Source of the DNA: Calorimonas adulescens
GTDB taxonomy: Bacteria; Bacillota; Thermoanaerobacteria; Thermoanaerobacterales; UBA4877
Length of the DNA: 64,000 bases
Assembly: GCF_008274215.1 (NCBI RefSeq)
Contig: NZ_VTPS01000014.1
Coordinates: 1-64,000, forward strand
Direction of reading: 5' to 3'
A program made the translations under genes and the position numbers. This document shows positions 3,298 to 46,112 of this stretch, piece by piece (positions within the stretch are counted from its first letter, which is position 1; each line of letters starts with the position of its first letter). A model generated the notes under the pieces. That model worked only from the letters and a program-made list of their open reading frames with translations, had not been told where the DNA came from and searched no databases.

Positions 3298-5245
3298 TGT
3301 TGTCAGTCAAATATTTTATTCCCTTTTCAGTTATCTCTGTACCCTCTATGCCCCTCTTTATTTCTATAAGGCCCAGGTCTCTAAGTCTCTTCATTATATG
3401 TCTTAACCTGTATTCGCTTATGTAGACCCCGCTGTCCGATAGTTCTTTAAACAGGGTCCGCCTGCCCATTGGCTTTTCTCTTAGAAGGTTCAAGACACGG
3501 ATAGAATCCGTATAGATATCTTCTCTGCTCAATATCCTGTCAATTTCCGTCTTCTCTGTATGAACCGGACGCATATATTGCGGCAGGTCGTCTATCTCAA
3601 CAAGGTCATCCTCTTTTACTGTACAGAGATACTCTACCACGTTCTCCAGTTCCCTGACATTACCCGGCCATGGATATTCTTCAATAAGTTTCATGGCCTC
3701 TCTGCTGATCCTGAGATGCCTGCCACGTTTTATCATGAAATGTCTTATTAACGGGAAAATATCTTCAACTCTTTCCCTCAATGGGGGTATCCTGATAAGG
3801 AGAACATTCAACCTGTAATAAAGGTCCTCCCTGAACTTTCCTGCCTCTATCAGCTTTACAAGTTCCCTGTTGGTGGCTGCTATCACCCTTACATCGATGG
3901 GTATGACCTTTAAGCCTCCCACCCTCCGTATCTGTTTTTCCTGGAGTACACGCAGCAGTCTTGCCTGCAGTTCCAGCGGTGCATCTCCTATTTCATCCAG
4001 GAAAATTGTGCCGCCATGAGCTTCTTCAAAAAGGCCTATTTTCCCTCCCCTCTTAGCTCCTGTGAAGGCACCCTCCTCATACCCAAAAAGTTCACTTTCC
4101 AGAAGATTTGAAGGTATGGAGGCAAAATTAACAGCTACAAAGGGCATATTTTTCCTCTCTGACATATTGTGTATTGCCTGGGCCACAAGTTCTTTGCCTG
4201 TGCCCGACTCCCCCAGGATCAATACAGTGGAGTCACTCTTAGCTATTTTCTCCGCCAACTTTACTGTATTTGTCATACTCCTGCTCTCGGTAACTATATC
4301 ACGTACCGTATACTTAGCTATATTGCCGTGTTCTGCAAGCTTCAGGCGCAGCTTCCTCTCCATTTCCCTTATCTCTGACACATCCTTTAAGGCATACAGG
4401 GTCATTTCCCCCAAACGCTTTGAGCTTATCACGACCTCCCTGCCATTAAAGTTATACACCCCTCCGTCAAGCAAACCACCTCTAATGCCCAATCTCGCCA
4501 TTATTGTTTGTAGAGGCATACTCTTAAGATCTATATCTCCAATAAACCTCTTCGCCACAGGGTTTAATAACTCTATATAGCCATTATTACCTGTCACCAT
4601 TATGCCTTCATCAATCGTATTTAAGACAGCCTCCAGCTGCAGCGAGTTATAGGTAGCCTCTCTTGTTATCTCCACTATATCCTTTATATATTTTACGGAA
4701 ACCATATTGCTCTTTATATTTAAAAGGTTAAAGCGCTGAAGCAATTCATATATGGTGGATATGTCAAGCGTCCTTACACCTATATCTATAAAGGACCTTA
4801 TACCCTCGGGTACAAGCTGCGGTTCACCAGGTGTCACCACATAGTCAAAGCCCTCGCTTATTTGACGGCCTGGCCAGTATGGTATAAAACTAAGGTAATC
4901 AAAACCCAAATTTTTTAATAGCTCTATGGTCTCCATTGTTGACGCCTCAAGGTCATTGACCAAAAGTACTCTGCTTCCAGGTGGTACGGCAAAGAGCCTG
5001 CTTAGCTCCTTGTAGTTTATCGATCTCCTTGCCACAATAATGGGGGTACCTTCCTCTATATGACCTATAACAGCATTATAAACAGCATCGCTACTTATAA
5101 GTATAAGGTCGTCACACAATGAATCAGGTATGCCCCCCTCTACTGATAAGCCCTTTATCTCGATGGAATCTCCAATAAAATCCCTTAGCTGCCTTATCAG
5201 TATTTTCAATGTGTTTTCCCCCTGGCTTAACACAGTAACCCCCAT
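3281..5245 (-). CDS. Sigma-54-dependent transcriptional activator, PrpR-type N-terminus, winged-helix C-terminus
   Basis: 654-residue activator of sigma-54 RNA polymerase. The N-terminal ~200 residues resemble the PrpR ligand-binding domain, with the repeated Rossmann-like features of that family. A PAS-like domain follows (about 205-300). The AAA+ module carries Walker A GESGTGKE, the sigma-54 contact loop GAFTGA and Walker [12 protein letters not shown]. After the AAA+ domain the DNA-binding end is not an evident Fis-type helix-turn-helix; the last ~75 residues look like a winged helix ([20 protein letters not shown]). I place the start at 5245, where GGAGG lies 7-8 nt upstream, rather than an ATG 30 nt earlier. 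It follows prsA by 39 nt. Likely target is the iadA/peptide-binding operon just downstream. Confidence 0.9.
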
Positions 5246-5284
5246 AAAAACCTCCTTGTTTAGAAAGGCTACCATTATGGTAGC

Positions 5285-6271
5285 CTACATATTCTCAGGA
5301 TACTTCTTTATATCAGCACTGGTCTTCCAATCCTCAATCAACTGGCTGAACTTTTCATCCCTTTTATTGGAAAGCACAAGGTCTTTAATCTCAGCCTTTA
5401 CCTCGTCAAATGGCTTTACCGGATATACCTTTTTATCAGAAACCTTTATAATATGATAACCATCGTTTGCCTTTATGAGGCTGGATATCTCGCCAGGCTG
5501 CAAAGCAAAAGCAGCTATGCTTATCTCTGTGGGCTGTTCGTAATAGGTAAACTCCCCAAGGCTTCCTCCATTATCCTTTGTAGCCTCGTCTTCCGAATAC
5601 TGTTTGGCCAGAGCGGCAAAGTCCTCCCCAGCTTTTGCCTTTTTAAGCACCTCTTCCGCTTTTGCCTTATCTGTTATGAGTATATGGGCAGCAGTCACCG
5701 TGTCGGGCTGGGTCTTGTAATCCGCCTGGTGCTGGTTGAAATACTGTCTTACCTCTTCATCGGTCACCTTGACGTCTGCTGTGGTCTTTTCCCACAGCTT
5801 GTACTGAAGGAGCTGTACCCGCATCAGGCTCGTATAAAACTCTTCAGATACCTTCTGGCTGTCCAGGTATTCCTTGAACTTTTCATCACCACCAAAGGCA
5901 CTTTTAACTGAATCGATGTGGGACTTCAGCTCATCCTGAAATTCCTTGGAATTGACATCTATATTATTCTTCTTGGCTTGCTGGTTTAATATTGTCTCAT
6001 ATATCATCTCATCTAAGACATTCTCTTTTAATATATCTATCATCTTCTTGCCCTGAGACTCTGTCTCCCAATATTTCTCATCCACATTGGGTTGTGCCTC
6101 ATAGGACTTCTTATAGTTATTAAGTGTCTCATCAAAGGCAGACTTCTTTATATCCTCTCCATTTACTGTTGCAACAACCTTGTCCTGCGGCTTGCTGGAG
6201 CATGCAGCCAACCCCATAACCAAGACAAACACAAGACCTAATAAAAGTATCTTTTTTTTCAATCCCACCAC
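5285..6271 (-). CDS. prsA: Peptidyl-prolyl isomerase foldase lipoprotein (PrsA family)
   Basis: Membrane-anchored extracytoplasmic foldase that assists secreted proteins after Sec export. The signal peptide ends in lipobox GLAAC, the N-terminal SurA-like chaperone region spans about residues 30-185, and a parvulin (PPIC rotamase) domain follows near 190-285 with AAHILI and NGGSLGEF. The 328-residue length is typical. Upstream in-frame starts are GTG 6271, GTG 6268 and TTG 6262; GGGGAG lies 8 nt before the TTG, so the real start may be 6262. It is the last gene of a pth-mfd-prsA run, 31 nt after mfd, and is followed by the sigma-54 activator. Confidence 0.92.
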   Translation of the reverse strand: MVGLKKKILLLGLVFVLVMGLAACSSKPQDKVVATVNGEDIKKSAFDETLNNYKKSYEAQPNVDEKYWETESQGKKMIDILKENVLDEMIYETILNQQAKKNNIDVNSKEFQDELKSHIDSVKSAFGGDEKFKEYLDSQKVSEEFYTSLMRVQLLQYKLWEKTTADVKVTDEEVRQYFNQHQADYKTQPDTVTAAHILITDKAKAEEVLKKAKAGEDFAALAKQYSEDEATKDNGGSLGEFTYYEQPTEISIAAFALQPGEISSLIKANDGYHIIKVSDKKVYPVKPFDEVKAEIKDLVLSNKRDEKFSQLIEDWKTSADIKKYPENM

Positions 6272-6302
6272 TCCCCATTAGTAATGACTCTATTATACAC
6301 CA

Positions 6303-9300
6303 TCACACTGCAACCTTCAAATCCTCTATTTCTTTTAATACCTTTAAGAAATCCTCCAGTCTGCTCAAAACCTCATCTTCACGCCTGCTTTTTAATTTCA
6401 AGGTAAAATATGGGGGTTCCGTAGCTGAATAAAGAACGTCCATGCATTTCGCCATCACCTTGCTTATATACTCAATATCTGACCCTTTTTCCTCCGAAAT
6501 CCTCACTATGATGCTGTCGCCTTTCTGTTCTATGGATGGTATCTTAAGTAGCCTGGCAATAGACTTCATATATGCAATTTTTATGAGGTTTAAAACGGGT
6601 CCAGGTATATCCCCAAACCTGTCTATAAGCTCCTCCTGTATATCTATCACATCCTCTGGGGACTCTATAGATGCCATCTTTTTATACATCTCTATACGGA
6701 GTGCCTCCTCTCCTATATATTCATCGTCTATATAGGCATTTACATCAAGATCTATAGTAGTATCCACCTCTCTGCCTACCTTTTCTCCCTTGAGTTTCCT
6801 TATGGCCTCTTCCATCATCTTAAAGTACAGGTCATAACCAACAGCCATCATATGCCCATGCTGCTCAGGCCCCAACAGGTTTCCCGCACCCCTTATCTCT
6901 AAGTCCCTCATGGCCAATTTAAATCCTGATCCAAACTCTGTAAACTCTCTTATGGCCTTGAGCCTTTTCTCAGCCTCTTCTGAAAGCACCTTATCCTTAT
7001 CATAAGTAAAATAGGCATAGGCCAACCTGTTGGAACGGCCTACCCTGCCTCTCAACTGGTAGAGTTGGGCCAGGCCCATCCTGTCTGCATCCTTTATGAT
7101 AATTGTATTTACATTCTGTATGTCAAGTCCCGTCTCAATAATAGTGGTACAGACCAGAACGTCGTACTCCCTGTTATAAAAGGCCTTCATCACTTTCTCC
7201 AGTTCCCTCTCAGACATCTTTCCATGGGCCACACATACCCTGGCCTCCGGCACGAGGTTTCTGAGCCGCTCTGCCATTTTGGCTATGTCATAAACCCTGT
7301 TGTATAGAAAGTATACCTGTCCTCCCCTCCCAATCTCCTTTAATATGGCATCTCTGACCACCTCATCATTATACTCCAGCACGTACGTCTGCACGGGATA
7401 CCGTTCCTCTGGAGGGGTCTCAATTATACTCATATCCCTAAGGCCAATCAAAGACATGTGCATCGTCCTCGGTATGGGCGTGGCAGACAGGGTAAGCACA
7501 TCCACATTTTTGGCTATCTTCTTAAGAAGCTCCTTATGTTTTACCCCAAACCTCTGCTCTTCATCTATAATGAGAAGCCCCAGGTCTTTAAACCTTATAT
7601 CCTTCTGTAAAAGCCTGTGGGTACCTATGACGATGTCCACATCTCCAGTCCTTAACCTTTCCAATGTCTCTTTCTGCTGTTCTGGCGTCCGGAATCTGCT
7701 GAGCATATCGATAGAGACAGGAAAGTCTTTAAACCTCTCCACAAAGTTGTTGTACTGCTGTTCAGCTAAGATGGTGGTAGGACACAGGTACGCCACCTGT
7801 TTTCCATCCATCACCGCCTTGAAGGCCGCCCTTATCGCCACCTCTGTCTTTCCGTAGCCCACATCACCACAGAGGAGCCTATCCATGGGACGTGGCTTTT
7901 CCATGTCAGCCTTTACCTCTTCTATTGAGCGCAGTTGGTCAGGCGTCTCCTCATAGGGAAACCTCTCTTCAAACTCCTTCTGCCACGGTGTATCTTTGGA
8001 AAAGGCATAACCTTCTATAGTCTGGCGCACTGCATACAGCTCGACAAGTTCCTTTGCCATCTCCTCAATGCCTTTTTTGGCCCTGTCCCGCGTCTTCTGC
8101 CATTCTCCGCCACTCAGTCTGTTTACCTTGGGAGCCCTGCCCTCCTCACCCACATATTTCTGCACCAGGTCCATCTGTTCAACAGGTACATACAGTTTAT
8201 CCGACCCCGCATACTCCAGGTTCAGATAGTCCCTCGTCACACCGTCCACCTTCATTGTAACTATCCCAAGGAACCTGCCTATACCATGATTTTCATGCAC
8301 CACATAGTCCCCCGGCTTTAAATCTGAAAGTTCCAGTTTCCTGCTCTGCTGCCTCCTTGAGGGCAAGACCCTCTGCCTGGCCACCCCAAAAAGCTCTACG
8401 TCTGATACCAGAGCAAAGCCTGCCCCAGGTATCTCAAACCCCTCTGAAACACTTCCGGGCACAATGTTTATCTCATTTGCCACTATGCCATCCATATCTT
8501 CAGCATAATAGGAAAAGATGCCAAATTCATTAAGGCTCTTTGTAAGTGCGTGTCCCCTGTCGCTATTACCCGAGAGCAATACTACCGTATATGCCTTTTT
8601 CCTCCACCCCATAACCTCATCCCTGATAAGTTCAGGCCTGCCGTGAAATGGGTGCATACCCTTTACAATAAAGTCTACATTAACCTCTGGTTTTATTACA
8701 GAACTTCTGCGGAAAACTGATGATGTTATAAGTATCCTCTTTTCTGCAGAAGATAGGATTCCATTCATCGTCATCATCAGGTTGGCCTGGCCTGGGAGTA
8801 CCTCACCCTTTCCCAAAAGCTCGGTCAATGTCTCGCCAAAACCTCTATGCTCCAGCTCCGCCTTTTCAGACAGTCTGGAGGGTTCTATAAGGATTACAAT
8901 GGCATCATCGGACAAATAATCCACAAGGCTATAAAATTCACTGTAAAAGTAAGGCATGTACTGCTCCATACCCTCAAAATAGGTGCCCAGGTTGAAGTTT
9001 ATAAGCCTCTCCTCTATCTTCTTCCTAAGCCTATCCTGTACATTGGGAAGCTTCAGTCTTCCCATCTGTGAGGAAAGGTCATATGACATCTCTTTATAAG
9101 CCCTCTTAAAATCCTCAGGCCCGGCTATTATCTCCCTAGCCGGTGTTAAGTACACCTCTCTCATCTCATCAGTAGACCTCTGGGTAAGAGGGTCAAAGTA
9201 CCTTATGGAGTCCACCTCAACATCGAAAAACTCTATCCTCACTGCCTCTTTAGTATCCATCGGAAAAATGTCTATTATGTCACCCCTTACAGCAAACTGC

Positions 9301-9806
9301 CCTCTCCCTTCCACCAGAGACTCCCTCTCATACCCGAGGTATACAAGCCGATCAATCAGCTCATACATATCCATGGAATCGCCAACAGAAATATGCATTA
9401 CAGACTTCAAAAACACTTCCGGAGGCATTATCCTTTGCAGCAGTGACTCAATAGATGTACACAGCACCACATCTTCCCCTTTTACGATGTGGCTTAAAGT
9501 CTCCAGCCTCTTTGCTGTTATGTCCATACTGCTGGCCACCACGGAGTAAAAAATAAGATCTCTTTTTGGAAACATGTATACCGTGTTTTTTAAATAAAAA
9601 AGGAGATCCTCATAGATTTTTCTCATTTCGTTCTCATTCTCAGTTACTACAAGGACCTGCCTTTTGTATTCATTATTTAAAGCAGCTATCAATGGCACGG
9701 TCTGTGCAGGGGTAAGGCCTGAAACAGCTATAGGGCTTTCCCCTGATTTGATGGCATCCCTTAACCTCTCGTAGGAAGACAACCGCAAAAATGGATTAAA
9801 TGCCAA
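6303..9806 (-). CDS. mfd: Transcription-repair coupling factor Mfd
   Basis: Cytoplasmic ATP-dependent translocase that displaces RNA polymerase stalled at DNA damage and recruits UvrA. The 1167 residues show the expected order: UvrB-like N-terminal region, CarD-type RNA-polymerase-interacting domain (around 495-560, KPGDYVVHENHGIGRFLG), RecG-like helicase domains with Walker A GDVGYGKTEVA and DEEQ box, SATPIPRTMHMS, QLRGRVGRS, and the C-terminal TRCF domain. The start appears to be TTG, 12 nt after the pth stop, preceded by GGGGTGG. Translational coupling to pth is likely. Confidence 0.97.
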   Translation of the reverse strand: MAFNPFLRLSSYERLRDAIKSGESPIAVSGLTPAQTVPLIAALNNEYKRQVLVVTENENEMRKIYEDLLFYLKNTVYMFPKRDLIFYSVVASSMDITAKRLETLSHIVKGEDVVLCTSIESLLQRIMPPEVFLKSVMHISVGDSMDMYELIDRLVYLGYERESLVEGRGQFAVRGDIIDIFPMDTKEAVRIEFFDVEVDSIRYFDPLTQRSTDEMREVYLTPAREIIAGPEDFKRAYKEMSYDLSSQMGRLKLPNVQDRLRKKIEERLINFNLGTYFEGMEQYMPYFYSEFYSLVDYLSDDAIVILIEPSRLSEKAELEHRGFGETLTELLGKGEVLPGQANLMMTMNGILSSAEKRILITSSVFRRSSVIKPEVNVDFIVKGMHPFHGRPELIRDEVMGWRKKAYTVVLLSGNSDRGHALTKSLNEFGIFSYYAEDMDGIVANEINIVPGSVSEGFEIPGAGFALVSDVELFGVARQRVLPSRRQQSRKLELSDLKPGDYVVHENHGIGRFLGIVTMKVDGVTRDYLNLEYAGSDKLYVPVEQMDLVQKYVGEEGRAPKVNRLSGGEWQKTRDRAKKGIEEMAKELVELYAVRQTIEGYAFSKDTPWQKEFEERFPYEETPDQLRSIEEVKADMEKPRPMDRLLCGDVGYGKTEVAIRAAFKAVMDGKQVAYLCPTTILAEQQYNNFVERFKDFPVSIDMLSRFRTPEQQKETLERLRTGDVDIVIGTHRLLQKDIRFKDLGLLIIDEEQRFGVKHKELLKKIAKNVDVLTLSATPIPRTMHMSLIGLRDMSIIETPPEERYPVQTYVLEYNDEVVRDAILKEIGRGGQVYFLYNRVYDIAKMAERLRNLVPEARVCVAHGKMSERELEKVMKAFYNREYDVLVCTTIIETGLDIQNVNTIIIKDADRMGLAQLYQLRGRVGRSNRLAYAYFTYDKDKVLSEEAEKRLKAIREFTEFGSGFKLAMRDLEIRGAGNLLGPEQHGHMMAVGYDLYFKMMEEAIRKLKGEKVGREVDTTIDLDVNAYIDDEYIGEEALRIEMYKKMASIESPEDVIDIQEELIDRFGDIPGPVLNLIKIAYMKSIARLLKIPSIEQKGDSIIVRISEEKGSDIEYISKVMAKCMDVLYSATEPPYFTLKLKSRREDEVLSRLEDFLKVLKEIEDLKVAV

Positions 9807-9818
9807 ATTACCACCCCG

Positions 9819-10373
9819 CTAATCTGGATTGTATCGGTTCATGGCCGTATCAATACCCTCTTTTATTATACACTCTATGGCATCTGCCGCTTTTTTTATG
9901 CTCACCCTCATCACTGCCAATTCTTCTTCAGTAAACCTGCCCAGCACATGGGATACCAAATCCGTCTCTGGAGAACCAATTCCAACTCTTACCCGTTGAA
10001 ATTCCTCACTTTTTATATTATATATTATGGACTTCATTCCATTATGTCCCCCATCACTGCCCTTCCTTCTTATGCGCACCTTGCCCAACGGCAGGTTTAT
10101 ATCATCGTAGACCACAATAAGGTCCTGAGGAGTAAGCTTATAAAAGTTCAATATATCAAGTACACAGTGTCCTGAACTGTTTACATATGTCACAGGCTTT
10201 ACCAGCAAAACCTTTTCACTGCCTATAACGGCTTCGCCGATAAGTCCCTTAAACTTTTCCCTAAAACCAGCATTATATCTATTGACCAGTTCATCTACAA
10301 CCATAAAGCCTGTATTATGCCTTGTCATTGCATACTCTCTGCCGGGGTTTCCTATCCCTACAACGACTCTCAT
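9819..10373 (-). CDS. pth: Peptidyl-tRNA hydrolase
   Basis: Recycles peptidyl-tRNA released from stalled ribosomes by hydrolysing the ester bond. 184 residues. Conserved GNPG, the catalytic histidine in MTRHNTGF, YDDINLPLG and GGHNGMKS are all present. Start chosen at 10373 because GGAGGTGG lies 5-6 nt upstream; an upstream extension of 10 codons has no such support. First gene of the pth-mfd-prsA run. Confidence 0.96.
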   Translation of the reverse strand: MRVVVGIGNPGREYAMTRHNTGFMVVDELVNRYNAGFREKFKGLIGEAVIGSEKVLLVKPVTYVNSSGHCVLDILNFYKLTPQDLIVVYDDINLPLGKVRIRRKGSDGGHNGMKSIIYNIKSEEFQRVRVGIGSPETDLVSHVLGRFTEEELAVMRVSIKKAADAIECIIKEGIDTAMNRYNPD

Positions 10374-10403
10374 CAATCCACCTCCGTATATATAATTATA
10401 CAC

Positions 10404-10745
10404 CAGAAGTCAAGATATTTAATCACAGTTTATCTCTCCATTTTAACAAGATGCAGTCACACATAACCATAACAAAAAAAGTTTTTATTTATCCTGATAT
10501 CAATAGTTGAATTCTCCTTCATGACTTCCTTTACCTGTACGGTAATTCAAAGGGAGGTGTCACCAAACATAATCTGGATAGGTGTCTTTACAGCTTGGGA
10601 GTGGCAGCTCTTATCTATGATAATGGTCAAAGATGGAGACGTAAAAATAACTGATAGCGCAAATAAAGATTTTTGCGTTGTCATCCCTATGTACTATGCA
10701 TACATAATTTTTCAGATAAGTCAAGTTGCTTGATTACAAAAAAAA
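10404..10745. other. Intergenic region with no convincing gene
   Basis: About 340 nt between pth and the small membrane protein terminator. A plus-strand frame at 10521-10733 (70 codons) contains a GGGAGGTG sequence inside it rather than before its start, and its product matches no family I recognise. I see no riboswitch here. It could be a gene remnant. Confidence 0.4.
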
Positions 10746-25807: not shown

Positions 25808-25911
25808 TAAAATTCCGGTATAAAGGGGTCACATCATAGGGAAGTTTTTAGATTATTAATTTTAAACTGTTTGGCTCATCCGGTAAAGAGTTTATATTAA
25901 GAATTTCAGTA

Positions 25912-25956
25912 AAAAACAGACACAAAGTACATAATTTGTATTTTGTGTCTGTTTTT
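25912..25956. terminator. Bidirectional terminator after the symporter gene
   Basis: AAAAACAGACACAAA / TTTGTGTCTGTTTTT stem with poly-T on both sides. Confidence 0.8.
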
Positions 25957-26040
25957 ATATAAAATGGTGTTAGTATAAAATTGTAGACCACTCCATTCTG
26001 TACCTCTAACGTAACATGTATAACTGCATGGAGATGAAAA

Positions 26041-39783: not shown

Positions 39784-39878
39784 CAGGATGAGGGCATATG
39801 CCCGGAGGCTCCGGGAACTTGTAGTCCTTGCTCTTATGCAAATATTCTTCAGTATCCTCTACATGGAAAATCATCTGC

Positions 39879-39940
39879 ATAAAATTAATGCTAAACCAAC
39901 GTGAGAATTATTTCTCACATTACTTTAGCATTAATTTTAT
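39879..39940. repeat. 62-nt two-level palindrome
   Basis: Outer arms of 17 nt (39879-39895 and 39924-39940) are perfectly complementary. Inside them GTGAGAA and TTCTCAC (39901-39917 region) form a second stem. It may be a miniature mobile element, an IS end or a strong hairpin RNA. Confidence 0.7.
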
Positions 39941-39985
39941 CACAGGATTATTTAATCTGAAAAATTTTGATAGTTTTGGACCAAT

Positions 39986-40614
39986 TTATTTTGAGAAATA
40001 ACATATAGGTTTTTTGTTTGCATCAGTGCCCAGTATCACGGTTTTCATTCTATCAGTAAGGGTTATATCGATTACCCCACCGAAGTATTCAAAACCATGA
40101 GTCAAACAGCGTATAAAAGTATTGACATCTGAGCGGTTTGTAAATTCTATATATATATTGCCCTGGAGTAGCCAAGTACCATAACAAATACATAAAGTTT
40201 ACGTATTTCCCCTATTTCTTCTTCAATGTAAGTGTATTCACTCCAGTCGACCTGCGTCTGCTGCCCAGGCTTGGTTTCATAACGGCATACAGCGATAGCT
40301 TGTTTTGGAGGTCTAAATTCCCTCACATAGTCCCTTAGGATGGTACGGCCACCACCATAGCCTTCTTTTTGGATTCTTTCATAGATAACTTCACAGTTAA
40401 ATATACCTTGGCCTATCAGTTCTTTGATAATATCTTTGTATGGGTCTAACTTTGACCCTTTCTTAGGATGTGGTCTTTCTTCCGGTATATCATTTGTCCT
40501 GAGGTATTTTCTCATTGTATTTCTCGGATGTCCTGTTTCTTTTGCAATTGCACGAATGCTCTTGCCTTCTGCTTTTAATTCGTGTAACATGATAATAGAT
40601 CCACTCTTTATCAT
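39986..40614 (-). pseudogene. istA: IS21-family istA transposase, frameshifted and truncated
   Basis: The N-terminal HTH (AIAKETGHPRNTMRKYL) and the first catalytic Asp segment (TQVDWSEY) are intact, but the frame closes near 40146 and homology continues in another frame (IEFTNRSDVNTFIRCL, DITLTDRMKTVILG) up to 39986. The remainder and istB are missing. Confidence 0.85.
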
Positions 40615-40841: not shown

Positions 40842-42203
40842 TTATCTGTCAAAGTCGGGGTTAAAAGTGCTCTGATCTGTTAGAACTATAATACCCTTTA
40901 TTGTCTTAATGTATTTCAAGAAATAACCCAATCCTAATAGAAAATAAGATAACCCTAACACCAAATATATTCCATATAATCCATAACCTGTATATTCAGT
41001 AATACTCCAAAGAATAAGGGCTGATATTGAGGAAACAATTAAGGAATAAATAAAAACCCACTTTTCTTGATCAATCCCTTGCAAACAATATTTGTATATC
41101 TGATTAATTACATTAAATAACTGAGGAAAAACTGCTACAGTTATATAATCACTCGACATCAAAATCAGCTTACTGTTATCTGTAATTAGTGTAAATACTG
41201 CCATGGGAAACAAGATTAATATTAGACCTATAATTAAGACGAAAATGTATGAGCAAACACTTGCTATTATTGGTAGGCTTTTCATTTTTCCGGTGTTGTT
41301 CTTTGCATATTCCTGTGCTGTTAGTGTGAGCGCTGCACCTGAATATGCATATACTGGTAATAATAAAATACTATTAATTGAATCTATTAAATTATAGGTT
41401 GCCACTTCATAAACTCCAAGTTTTGCTACTAATGCTGTAATTATCATTATAAACAACGAAGACTCAATGAAATCTTGTCCGAATAATGGCAAATATAATT
41501 TAATAAGGTTTCTACTCACTGTTTTTGATATTGAAAAGCTATAGCTAAAGTCAGTATGCTTCAAAAAACCTATTATATAAATCACTATACTGCTCAACAA
41601 TCCAACTACGGAACCTATGGCAGCTCCTTTAACTCCAAGCCTTGGAAAACCAAATTTACCAAATACTAAAATATAATCTAAAGCAAGATTAACTATTATC
41701 GCAGTTATAGTACCATACATAAACATGGTTGTTCTTTTTAGATTTTTAAAGTACGCAGAAAAAATAAAAATTATCAAATTTAATTCTAAGCTAAAACCTG
41801 CTATATTCATATAGTCACAAGCATATGTCAATGTACTTCCTTCCAGATTATAAAACTTTTGAAAAATCGTTCTCCCAAATATAATTCCAAGGATACCAAA
41901 TGCAAAACCGATAACAATACTCAGGGACAATGATGTATTGAATATCTGTGAATATTTATCCCTATCACGCTTTGCAAATGACTTTGCAAAGATAATATTA
42001 AATGCCATAGATAGCATGCCAAATGTTCCAGTTAGCACATATAGTAAAGAAGAAACTATACCCACTGCAGCAAAGCCTTCTACTGATGTTCTTCCTATTA
42101 TAGCTTTATCTGTAATAGTAAAAATTGTCTCAATCGCAAATGTAGATATTACAGGTATTGCCATTCTATTTATTATTGATATGTCTTCTTTATTTACAGT
42201 CAT
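40842..42203 (-). CDS. MATE-family multidrug/metabolite efflux protein
   Basis: 453 residues and about 12 membrane spans. MATE features include the two homologous halves with PVISTFAIETIFTITDKAIIG and LPLFGQDFIESSLFIMII. It overlaps the preceding PqqD-like gene by 14 nt, so the two are translationally coupled and it may export a product made by the neighbours. Base composition is clearly more AT-rich than surrounding housekeeping genes, pointing to transfer. Confidence 0.88.
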   Translation of the reverse strand: MTVNKEDISIINRMAIPVISTFAIETIFTITDKAIIGRTSVEGFAAVGIVSSLLYVLTGTFGMLSMAFNIIFAKSFAKRDRDKYSQIFNTSLSLSIVIGFAFGILGIIFGRTIFQKFYNLEGSTLTYACDYMNIAGFSLELNLIIFIFSAYFKNLKRTTMFMYGTITAIIVNLALDYILVFGKFGFPRLGVKGAAIGSVVGLLSSIVIYIIGFLKHTDFSYSFSISKTVSRNLIKLYLPLFGQDFIESSLFIMIITALVAKLGVYEVATYNLIDSINSILLLPVYAYSGAALTLTAQEYAKNNTGKMKSLPIIASVCSYIFVLIIGLILILFPMAVFTLITDNSKLILMSSDYITVAVFPQLFNVINQIYKYCLQGIDQEKWVFIYSLIVSSISALILWSITEYTGYGLYGIYLVLGLSYFLLGLGYFLKYIKTIKGIIVLTDQSTFNPDFDR

Positions 42204-42504
42204 TTTTTTCTTCTAACTCCACGAGAATCCTCTGAAGAACATTTTCAGAAATAATCTCTAATTTTTGTAATGTTAGAAATAAATCTCTAATATCTTTCTT
42301 TAATTCTATCAGCCCTACATCATATTCAATCATAATATCTGATAATATTGTTGAAACAGATATACCATCATTTATTTCTTTTAAAATAAAAGCAGAAATT
42401 TGATCGACCGAATAAACTCCGCCATTAGTAGATATTAGCCCAGTTTCATCTTCTTCTATCCTCATTGAAAACGGAACACCTAAGTTTTCAACTTTTATCA
42501 TCAT
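42190..42504 (-). CDS. PqqD-like RiPP recognition element (RRE) protein
   Basis: 104 residues. The order of strands and helices (STNGGVYSVDQISAFILKEI, then VSTILSDIMIEYDVG and LKKDIRDLFLTL) matches PqqD/RRE winged-helix domains, which hold leader peptides for modifying enzymes. Its 5' end overlaps the SPASM gene by 17 nt and its 3' end overlaps the MATE gene. Confidence 0.75.
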   Translation of the reverse strand: MMIKVENLGVPFSMRIEEDETGLISTNGGVYSVDQISAFILKEINDGISVSTILSDIMIEYDVGLIELKKDIRDLFLTLQKLEIISENVLQRILVELEEKNDCK

Positions 42505-42922
42505 TTAGTATCAACTCCTTCTTACATATTGGGCATCTCTCATCCGAAGACATTAAGTCATTATGAAATGAAAATGCACATGCTCTACATCCTGCTTTAC
42601 ATGTTAACAGTAATTTACAATTTTTACAATTCCCCAACACATCTTGCAAATTAATCTCTCTTAATTTTTTAAAGACAGTTGATTCATTCCATATCTCATA
42701 TAAAGGCTCTTCTTTTAGATTACCTGCCTTTAATTCGGTATAAGTGGCCATCATACTACAGCCATAAACATTTCCAAAATCATCTATATAAAAATTATCT
42801 TTTCCTGCTGTACAACCAAATTCAGTTTCATTTAGTGTACTAACTAAATTAGTTGAAATCCAAAGATTTATATCTTCAATCATTTCAGCCTCATATAGCG
42901 GTTTTTTGTATGCCTTTTTCAT
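42488..42922 (-). CDS. SPASM-domain protein lacking a radical-SAM core, with a RiPP-leader-like N-terminus
   Basis: 144 residues. From about residue 33 it matches the Cys-rich SPASM (auxiliary Fe-S) domain of radical SAM peptide maturases: FGCTAGKDNFYIDDFGNVYGC, then CKNCKLLLTCKAGCRAC and CPICKK. The upstream radical SAM barrel with CxxxCxxC is absent. The first ~20 residues (MKKAYKKPLYEAEMIEDI) resemble YxxPxL-type leaders of RiPP precursors. The start has a proper AAAGGGGG ribosome site, so this short form is apparently expressed. It could be a deletion fusion of a precursor gene with the end of its maturase gene, or a genuine stand-alone SPASM protein. Confidence 0.75.
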   Translation of the reverse strand: MKKAYKKPLYEAEMIEDINLWISTNLVSTLNETEFGCTAGKDNFYIDDFGNVYGCSMMATYTELKAGNLKEEPLYEIWNESTVFKKLREINLQDVLGNCKNCKLLLTCKAGCRACAFSFHNDLMSSDERCPICKKELILNDDKS

Positions 42923-42954
42923 TAAATTTTCCCCCTTTCATTAAAAGTAGTGTC

Positions 42955-42968
42955 AAATCGGCCGATTT
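42955..42968. promoter_or_regulatory. 14-bp perfect palindrome upstream of the SPASM gene
   Basis: AAATCGGCCGATTT lies between a TATAAA-like -10 (about 42990-42985, minus strand) and the ribosome site, where a repressor could bind. Confidence 0.45.
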
Positions 42969-43606
42969 TTGCTTATTTTAATTTATACCATGGTAAAGCT
43001 TTAAATTTAGCCCTGCATAATTGACTTAGAAGTTAAGTATTGTTTAAATATTATCTTGCAATCTCGCGGAAATGATGTATCTAATTATTGAATAGATTTA
43101 ATTATCCTAAATAGGAATTTAGCATAGTTACCAGATCTGTTCAATATTCAAATATGATTAAATTGTATTATATAAACCCGTATATCTTCTGTATTCTTTA
43201 TTTTTCTTTATTTTTTATATATTTATAAATCTTATATTTTACATAATCAAAGTATAATTATACTATAAATCCAGCTATTTTGTAGATAAGCTTTTATTCA
43301 TAAAAATGGAATAGATGATATATCCAAGGTTAAATCCATTACCAGGCTGAAGAGATTCAATAAGACGCTGAACCTATTCTCGCTCCGCTGCTTCTTTGAA
43401 AAGACAGATGAGGATAACAGGTAAGAAGTCAAAGAGAAGAGATATGTGCCAGAACATCAATAATAGACCATGACAAGATTATAGCTGGAAGTGATTATTA
43501 CGGGCGGCACGGTTTTGATTGCCGTTGTTGATTTACAATAAATATTGACCCCTCAAAATAAAAAACATATATTCTCCTTAGCATAATATAAGGGGAGGAG
43601 AAAGGG
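42969..43606. other. AT-rich region with decayed transposase fragments, no intact gene
   Basis: Very AT-rich to about 43320. A plus-strand fragment (43326-43424) reads ITRLKRFNKTLNLFSLRCFF before a stop, and another ends GSDYYGRHGFDCRC near 43530; both look like tails of lost transposases. A TTGACCCCTC at 43550 may start an IS21 end. Confidence 0.45.
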
Positions 43607-43702
43607 TTGATCAATATAGAGCAATGGTATACGATACGAAATCTGTATTTCAAGGGCTATGGTAAAAAGACTATTGCCAGAATGTTGTTTATGTTACACT
43701 AA
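43607..43702 (+). pseudogene. istA: N-terminal stub of an IS21 istA transposase
   Basis: TTG start preceded by GGGGAGGAGAAAGGG. The product begins INIEQWYTIRNLYFKGYGKK and breaks off in the HTH after about 27 codons. A second, independent IS21 remnant. Confidence 0.65.
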
Positions 43703-43748
43703 ACCCAGTATTTCAGTTGAAAAATCCTCCACTTTAAGATAGAATTTT

Positions 43749-43772
43749 CCTCATGTAATAAACTACATGAGG
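43749..43772. repeat. Hairpin upstream of the broken transposase
   Basis: CCTCATGTA / TACATGAGG, 9-bp perfect stem with 6-nt loop, probably part of an IS end or leader. Confidence 0.55.
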
Positions 43773-43794
43773 GAGTGATGGAGTTGATATCGTT

Positions 43795-44322
43795 ATGGTT
43801 AATTCTCCTTCTGATAATCCTGTTTCAGAGAGGTACCGTAAGCTTAAGGTTGATGCTATGCCTATAGTTGAAAAGCGACAGTTGTATGATTATAGGCAGC
43901 TACTGAATGAGTATTTTTAAGAACACGATAAACCCATTAAACCTGTTAATAGAAGAAGCAAGTTCTTACCTCCTGATTCTGTTGTGTGCCCTATTTGTGG
44001 CGTTCCTTATGAGTATATATATGACAACGCTGGTGGTAGAGGTCAACTTGGTTGTAAGGTAGGCAGGTCTACTTTTTACCCTGATAAAACTTATTTGGAA
44101 AAGCTTACGCTTAAGTATCCTCATTGTGGTAAGCCTCTTCAGAAAAAGCGTGACCGTCAACAGTTCTTTGTTTATACTTGTGTTAATAAGCGTTGCCCTT
44201 TTTATGTCTATAACATTACTTCTATGTCTAAGGACGAGAAGGCTGATTTTGAGAGAAATTCTTACAAATATAAGCTGCATTATTATCGGGTGCTTGCTGA
44301 CCCCTCAAGAGAATTGGACTAA
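43795..44322 (+). pseudogene. Transposase N-terminal half with internal stop, interrupted by an IS3 element
   Basis: The reading frame runs MVNSPSDNPVSERYRKLKVD, meets TAA at 43918, and continues in frame with a zinc-binding-like region (CPICGVPYEYIYDNAGGRGQ, CPFYVYN) to about 44305. There it runs into the terminal sequence of an IS3 element. I cannot name the IS family. Confidence 0.7.
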
Positions 44323-44366
44323 AACGCATAACATGATAAAATTTCTCTTGAAGGGGTTCTAAAGCA

Positions 44367-44645
44367 ATGGCAGCCCATAAAAACTTTACCATTGAAGAAA
44401 AGCTTGCTATATTAGCAGAAGCAGAAAGTTCCTCTACTGCTAAGATTCCTGTATGTAGAAAATATGGTATATCAAAAGCTACTCTCGACTATTGGAGAAA
44501 ACAATTTTTAAATAGTAAAGAACATCCAGAAGATGAACTGGCAAAACTTAGAAAAGAAAATGTTATGCTTCGTTCTATAATAGTGGATAAAGACCTTGAA
44601 ATAGCATATCTTAAAGAATTATTAAAAAAAACGAGCCAACGTTAA
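44367..44645 (+). CDS. IS3-family transposase OrfA
   Basis: 92-residue HTH protein (FTIEEKLAILAEAESSST, KYGISKATLDYWRKQF) with a C-terminal leucine-zipper-like helix (LRKENVMLRSIIVDKDLEIAYL), the normal OrfA layout. It ends at an A8 slippery run where -1 frameshifting would produce OrfAB. Confidence 0.85.
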   Translation: MAAHKNFTIEEKLAILAEAESSSTAKIPVCRKYGISKATLDYWRKQFLNSKEHPEDELAKLRKENVMLRSIIVDKDLEIAYLKELLKKTSQR

Positions 44646-44812
44646 GTGACAAGATTGAAATAATTGAAGCTTTTAGGGTCAGGAGCATAAATTTAGACTT
44701 CCTTCTTGAAATTGCAGGGGTTTCAAAAAGTACATTTTTCTATAAAACCCTTGAAAAAGATGGTATTACAAATAGAGGAGAAGGGGTACCTGGCTTTTCA
44801 CTATGTAAATGA
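44620..44812 (+). pseudogene. IS3 orfB remnant
   Basis: The -1 frame after the A8 run reads DKIEIIEAFRVRSINLDFLL and SKSTFFYK, typical of OrfB N-termini, then stops after GVPGFSLCK. The DDE catalytic core is deleted. Confidence 0.65.
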
Positions 44813-44930: not shown

Positions 44931-44959
44931 ATGATAGAAAAGATAAAAAGCGGGTGATT

Positions 44960-44987
44960 AAAATTCCCGGGATTATCCCGGGAATTT
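44960..44987 (-). terminator. Terminator of the glycerate kinase gene, identical to 39756-39783
   Basis: The 5' arm encodes the last residues and stop of the kinase. Same 28 nt as the copy on the other side of the island. Confidence 0.75.
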
Positions 44988-46112
44988 TAATTTCGCTATT
45001 AATCTTCCTATATCCTCTGCCCTATCTCTAATTAGTTCATACCCCCTATCCATTGCTTCTTTGAGACTCATGGGTCTGCTTGTTATACTGAACAAGGCCG
45101 TCACACCTGCATCATACAGTTCTTTATAACTCTCTCCAAGCCCGCCTGATATTATTACCACTGGTTTGCCGTATCTCTTCCCTATCTTTGCTATGCCTGC
45201 TGGTGCTTTCCCAAACCTGGCCGTTTGAAAATCCGTATTGCCCTCTCCTGTAATAACTATATCCGCATCTTTTATCAGATCTTCCAGATGGGTTGCCTCT
45301 ATGACCACATCAATGCCCCTCTTTATATCTGCATTCAGAAAGGCCTTAAATGCAAAGCCAAGGCCACCTGCTGCGCCAGCGCCGGGATAGTCCCTGTAAT
45401 CTCGACCAATTGCATTTGCACTGAGGTCAGCAAAATGGGAAAGGTTTCTATCCAGTAAAGCTACCATCTCTTTTGTGGCACCCTTTTGCGGGCCGTATAC
45501 AGCAGATGCGCCCCTCTCGCCGCAGAGCGGGTTATCCACGTCGCAGGCGACCGTAAAGTGGCACTTAGCTATCCTTTTATCCAATCCTGAAATATCTATG
45601 GATGCAGCCCTACCAAGTTCGCCTCCACCAAACCCAATCTCATTGCCAGACTCATCTGTTATCCTTACACCCAAAGCCTGAAGCATACCTGCTCCGCAAT
45701 CGTTGGTGGCACTTCCCCCTATTCCTATAATAAAGTTCTTGCATCCCCTATCCAATGCATCTTTTATAAGCTCCCCGGTCCCGTATGTGGTGGTCACAAG
45801 AGGATTCCTCCTATCTTCAGCTACCATACTGAGCCCCGACGCTGCTGCCATCTCTATAACGCATGTACCATCCTTAAGTATCCCGTAAAAGCTCTTCTGT
45901 CTGTCTCCCAGTGGGGCTGTTACTGTAACCTCTACAAGTTCTCCACCCACAGCAGACAGGAAGGCATCCACAGTCCCTTCTCCTCCATCAGCTATGGGTA
46001 TTTTTACTATATCAAAACTTCCGGATCTTTTAAGTCCCTCTTCTATGGCGTTGCATACCTGTTTTGATGTAAGGCTCCCCTTATATGAATCCGGTGAAAT
46101 GATGACCCTCAT
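44973..46112 (-). CDS. Glycerate 2-kinase (GarK/GlxK family)
   Basis: 379 residues. Family motifs: SPDSYKGSLTS at the N-terminus, PIADGGEGTVDAFL, GIGGSATNDCGAGMLQALG and ITGEGNTDFQTARFGKAP. Phosphorylates D-glycerate (2-kinase type) for glycolysis. Weak ribosome site (GAAGG very near ATG). The GntP-family transporter at 50412 might bring in its substrate; that link is inference. Confidence 0.93.
   Translation of the reverse strand: MRVIISPDSYKGSLTSKQVCNAIEEGLKRSGSFDIVKIPIADGGEGTVDAFLSAVGGELVEVTVTAPLGDRQKSFYGILKDGTCVIEMAAASGLSMVAEDRRNPLVTTTYGTGELIKDALDRGCKNFIIGIGGSATNDCGAGMLQALGVRITDESGNEIGFGGGELGRAASIDISGLDKRIAKCHFTVACDVDNPLCGERGASAVYGPQKGATKEMVALLDRNLSHFADLSANAIGRDYRDYPGAGAAGGLGFAFKAFLNADIKRGIDVVIEATHLEDLIKDADIVITGEGNTDFQTARFGKAPAGIAKIGKRYGKPVVIISGGLGESYKELYDAGVTALFSITSRPMSLKEAMDRGYELIRDRAEDIGRLIAKLKFPG

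Follow-up and report, generated by a model that had tools for sequence, protein, structure and literature searches.

Three overlapping genes of Calorimonas adulescens (assembly GCF_008274215.1, contig NZ_VTPS01000014.1) encode a short protein with a SPASM domain, a PqqD-like RRE and a MATE exporter. They lie on the minus strand at positions 40842-42922 of the stretch of 64,000 nt analyzed here, which we call the window. Why should a SPASM domain stand next to an RRE and an exporter apart from a radical SAM core? A sequence-only reading of the window had proposed either a deletion fusing a precursor gene to the end of its maturase gene or a stand-alone SPASM protein of a new kind, serving as substrate or partner. 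We consider the block to be an in-frame deletion remnant of a WGK-like radical SAM RiPP operon, with a probability of roughly 0.85; the shortened gene is real and, most likely, no more than a remnant in ordinary decay.

Gene identities and relation to the tryglysin operon

The three genes follow each other in the order SPASM, RRE and MATE, with end-to-start overlaps of 17 nt and 14 nt (Table 1), and their coordinates, order and identities agree with the sequence-only reading. All three products exceed the Pfam cut-offs for their families: the SPASM protein scores 41.6 bits over residues 37-103 (PF13186, cut-off 21.5), the RRE 32.4 bits (PF05402, PqqD type, cut-off 23.4) and the exporter 110 bits (MatE). 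The SPASM protein also reaches 52.3 bits with TIGR04085 (cut-off 27). As had been claimed, it is preceded by a good ribosome site, AAAGGGGG, separated by 8 nt from the ATG.

Table 1. Features of the three-gene block and its flanks in the window.
Feature	Position	Strand	Basis or remark
SPASM-only ORF, 144 aa	42488..42922	-	Pfam SPASM; last third of a radical SAM/SPASM maturase of WgkB-like type; origin of 5' end uncertain
PqqD-like RRE, 104 aa, WgkC-like	42190..42504	-	PF05402; best NCBIfam model WgkC
MATE exporter, 453 aa, WgkD-like	40842..42203	-	WgkD model; MatE
Ribosome site AAAGGGGG of SPASM ORF, approximate place	42928..42939	-	GAAAGGGGGAAAATTTA preceding ATG
Block common to MAG Yes75-04, 99% DNA identity	41504..43169	-	There, one end inside the MATE gene, upstream end is the contig end
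IS21-like transposase fragment, flank	40147..40614	-	Weak rve integrase-core match at C-terminus; IstA-like N-terminus by eye
Transposase helix-turn-helix ORF, other flank	44367..44645	+	PF01527, 39.3 bits

Both the AT-richness of the block and the IS debris around it, noticed earlier, were found again: GC is about 0.28-0.31 in the three genes versus 0.37-0.50 in adjoining genes, transposase sequences lie on both flanks, and parts of the flank at 42923-44760 recur elsewhere in the genome. Scans of the locus for promoters and terminators gave matches at chance level only. Three imperfect palindromes of 67-89 bp, which match themselves inverted, were observed at 39869-39949, 25891-25979 and 44940-45006 of the window; possible identities are terminators or small mobile elements.

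The top NCBIfam models of the three proteins all belong to the tryglysin (WGK) system, a RaS-RiPP operon of Streptococcus mutans and S. ferus, for which the published order runs from the precursor through the radical SAM enzyme and the RRE to the transporter (PMC8092268). The block has the order B-C-D of wgkABCD, that is, maturase, RRE and MATE exporter, but its scores are far under the cut-offs: 97.9 bits for WgkB (cut-off 650), 23.5 bits for WgkC (cut-off 110) and 317.3 bits for WgkD (cut-off 510). Since every curated WGK cut-off was missed, we use the term WGK-like for the block and do not count it among the tryglysin systems. The comparison with streptococcal WgkB was made through its NCBIfam model, where residues 12-130 of the SPASM protein align with positions 243-361 of 367, the C-terminal third alone. 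Unlike wgkABCD, the block has no radical SAM core, no precursor was found with it, and no Rgg/SHP regulator was recognized alongside. It also resembles the PqqE/PqqD-type radical SAM/SPASM maturases with an RRE in its seven-cysteine SPASM domain, its PqqD-like RRE and a best PDB fold match to PqqE, but differs from them in having no AdoMet-binding barrel. The block suggests that this clostridial lineage once had a WGK-like radical SAM RiPP operon, beyond the streptococci in which the system was described.

The absent radical SAM core and the first 22 residues

That the SPASM domain stands without its radical SAM core was confirmed: both the CxxxCxxC site and the barrel (PF04055) are absent from the protein, and no radical SAM remnant was found in any frame of 42923-44400, the roughly 1.5 kb upstream of the gene. 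Further WgkB-model matches in the C. adulescens genome fall in separate open frames that are longer. On the same strand upstream to position 43600 we found neither a short ORF with WGK, as expected of a WgkA-type precursor, nor a convincing precursor ORF of any other kind. The remnant would be unable to make a modified peptide alone because the AdoMet-binding CxxxCxxC site is missing.

We propose that an ancestral operon encoded a precursor, a WgkB-like radical SAM/SPASM maturase, a WgkC-like RRE and a WgkD-like MATE exporter. An in-frame deletion would have taken out the barrel with the catalytic radical SAM site, and with it the precursor gene if one adjoined, so that a start codon preceded by a good ribosome site came to stand before the C-terminal SPASM part of the maturase. 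The 5' piece may then be either the first 7-10 residues of the maturase itself or the start of a precursor leader. The three best models, the gene order, the confinement of the WgkB match to the C-terminal third and the lack of an upstream core remnant all argue for such a deletion, as do the full-length frames of nearly all listed relatives and the truncated exporter of a second copy (see below). Against it stand the undamaged SPASM part and the good ribosome site, and the deletion is deduced from these comparisons with no close intact ancestor found. Of the two alternatives in the earlier proposal, the first, in which a deletion left a 5' piece in front of the maturase end, is the best supported explanation, but this piece need not be a precursor leader and may be the N-terminus of the maturase itself. 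A deletion internal to the maturase gene requires no leader at all.

The supposed YxxPxL leader motif reads YKKPLY, with no leucine at position 6, and the strict motif is therefore missing. Residues 1-35 alone match no NCBIfam model, precursor families included, so this part is recognizable neither as WgkB nor as a precursor of any known family. The WgkB score is 97.9 bits for the full protein, 95.5 bits from residue 22 and 90.4 bits from residue 36, so that residues 1-21 add about 2.4 bits. The opening MKKAYKKPL resembles MNMLYYRAPL, with which a related radical SAM enzyme of full length begins. The sequence PLYEAEMIEDINLW resembles the linkers of three enzymes from one other genome (G183), PLLELGYSLNEIEYIW, PLKELGMEQELKEIW and PLLDRIEDAYHPRLW, in which the pattern PLxE...LW of residues 8-21 recurs directly before the SPASM domain. 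The same N-terminus is also like RiPP leaders in a general way. Residues 1-22 thus resemble the N-terminus of the enzyme and its pre-SPASM linker about equally well.

Statistical comparisons did not separate an origin in a leader from one in an enzyme. When residues 1-35 were aligned pairwise against linkers, a precursor and the N-termini of enzymes, most results were not significant; the one low value, p 0.005 with the N-terminus from locus L055, is one of 14 comparisons and is not taken as proof. Pattern shuffles gave 0.0002 for PLxE...LW, 0.002 for M..Y..PL and 0.006 for YxxP-x-hydrophobic, values which are merely suggestive because the patterns were set up after the sequences had been seen.

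A true wgkA-like leader as the 5' piece, left by a deletion that began within the precursor gene and reached into that of the maturase, as in the earlier proposal, has somewhat less than an even chance. The MKK-rich start with Y-x-x-P, the acidic residues that follow, the good ribosome site and the almost negligible contribution of residues 1-21 to the WgkB score speak for it, as does the likewise MKK-type start, MKKW..P, of a 27-aa candidate precursor that precedes a WgkB-like enzyme in G183. The imperfect motif, the lack of a precursor model match and the presence of similar Y-x-x-P-L and PLxE...LW sequences in enzymes speak against it. If the piece is a leader, residues 1-20 may still serve the RRE as its binding site on the SPASM protein. 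Because this origin is a sub-case of the deletion remnant, its probability overlaps with that of the main reading.

A second copy, relatives and a possible function

The same block was found in MAG Yes75-04 (JASEJQ010000003.1), which belongs to the same family but another genus and encodes a 144-aa protein of 100% amino acid identity. The common block is 1666 bp long with 99.0% DNA identity, and the homologous neighboring DNA of Yes75-04 is 76-82% identical. By inspection, five of the 16 differences between the copies come from a fold-back at the Yes75-04 contig end; within the genes we count two silent changes in SPASM, two changed codons in the RRE, and one changed and two silent codons in MATE. 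Two silent and zero amino acid changes in SPASM would also fit selection, but these counts are too small for a selection test. The flanks on the exporter side differ, and the Yes75-04 MATE frame is homologous only up to residue 232 or so; the exporter is broken there, and the operon is eroding in this host.

Since the short gene is common to both copies, the deletion must be older than the two, and their 99% DNA identity traces them to one event. We infer that the broken block was shared horizontally between the two genera and that erosion followed, which suggests that a broken form of a WGK-like operon can pass between genera. The contig end itself (positions 1-40 of the Yes75-04 locus) folds back on the sequence at window positions 43142-43169, about 240 bp upstream, and is possibly an assembly artefact.

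Close intact operons were looked for with the SPASM protein in the family, order, class and a phylum sample, with the WgkB and WgkD models, the RRE and a four-row SPASM profile, and in genome contigs, viral contigs and plasmids, and none was found. One WgkB-model search at E 1e-60 used too strict a threshold, as its control was without a match too, and carries no weight here. With the four-row profile in 299 genomes, nearly all listed matches outside C. adulescens and Yes75-04 sit in frames of at least 328 aa; the exceptions are fragments themselves, one frame of 227 aa left over from a split gene and one of 155 aa that opens where its contig starts, and no independent family of short forms was seen. 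Complete enzymes resembling the maturase end were found, the closest at 36-40% identity, but a close intact ancestor with the same C-terminus was not. The phylum samples were even draws and non-exhaustive, and absence from them is not proof. A solitary MATE in another genome (G014:C8:213850-215121) scores 414 bits with WgkD, above the MATE of the block, to which it is 36% identical; it was rejected as part of an intact operon since no recognizable maturase or RRE adjoins it.

The domain itself appears well preserved. All seven SPASM cysteines are present (residues 37, 55, 99, 102, 108, 112 and 130), and of the columns that at least 90% of 33 relatives conserve, the protein keeps 12 of 12, where intact relatives lose 0-3. 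AlphaFold predicts residues 40-90 or so with high confidence and the part up to about 130 with fair to good confidence, while residues 1-33 have pLDDT below 50; the best PDB match of the predicted structure is PqqE. The RRE model, with a mean pLDDT of 56, was too poor for use. A SPASM domain free of visible damage, without a stop, fits a recent deletion as well as it fits continued use.

In a rival reading, the SPASM-only protein works on its own as a partner, either as an Fe-S helper of a radical SAM enzyme encoded elsewhere or as a substrate of the RRE. We regard this as improbable, in spite of the intact cysteines and conserved columns, the confident fold, the frame kept in two genera and the operon-like overlaps. 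The identity of the two copies points to a single event, no diverged short homolog was detected in 37 class genomes or about 400 phylum genomes, and the RRE was found only in C. adulescens and Yes75-04 among 398 genomes. The new stand-alone substrate or partner of the earlier proposal thus gained no positive support: no short family was seen in the genomes searched, neither a precursor nor an adjoining radical SAM partner was found, and the Yes75-04 exporter is broken. In the literature covered, which lacks most subscription journals, no stand-alone SPASM partner of this kind is described. A slightly more remote prospect is that the short gene yields a working SPASM Fe-S protein tagged with a leader, which the RRE would hold and selection would have kept after the deletion; its role would be that of a decoy substrate or of a helper to some radical SAM enzyme encoded elsewhere. 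Should the short protein have a function, it would show in nature a SPASM domain at work without its radical SAM core.

A misjoin in assembly or sequencing is very improbable: both assemblies are fragmented and the Yes75-04 contig ends in its fold-back near the block, but the identical junction recurs in a second, separate genome, distinguished by SNPs and by its exporter-side flank, and the short gene is therefore not an assembly accident of one genome.

Related loci in other genomes

A comparable decay was observed in genome G026 (C1, about position 1804587), where a related radical SAM/SPASM gene is split by a transposase ORF and a 99-aa SPASM fragment is left. By analogy, this insertion may serve as an example of how such remnants arise, and it is in line with the deletion remnant that we prefer for C. 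adulescens.

The C. adulescens genome encodes a second PqqD-like protein of 115 aa (contig C11, 38081-38248), with no radical SAM gene within its 3-kb locus; it adjoins a 192-aa protein of unknown function.

The G183 locus mentioned above (C1:3300000-3312000, locus positions 4184-10495) is RiPP-like and contains two WgkB-like radical SAM/SPASM enzymes, an RRE, a probable B12-type radical SAM protein and an MFS-like transporter, together with the candidate 27-aa precursor MKKWIVPKADFVSGRWLKWDKDSVVEE. The SPASM part of one of the enzymes is 36% identical to the SPASM protein of the block. The RRE gene lies between the two enzyme genes and the short MKK-type candidate precursor before the first; unlike the block, the locus has complete enzymes, and its transporter is MFS instead of MATE.
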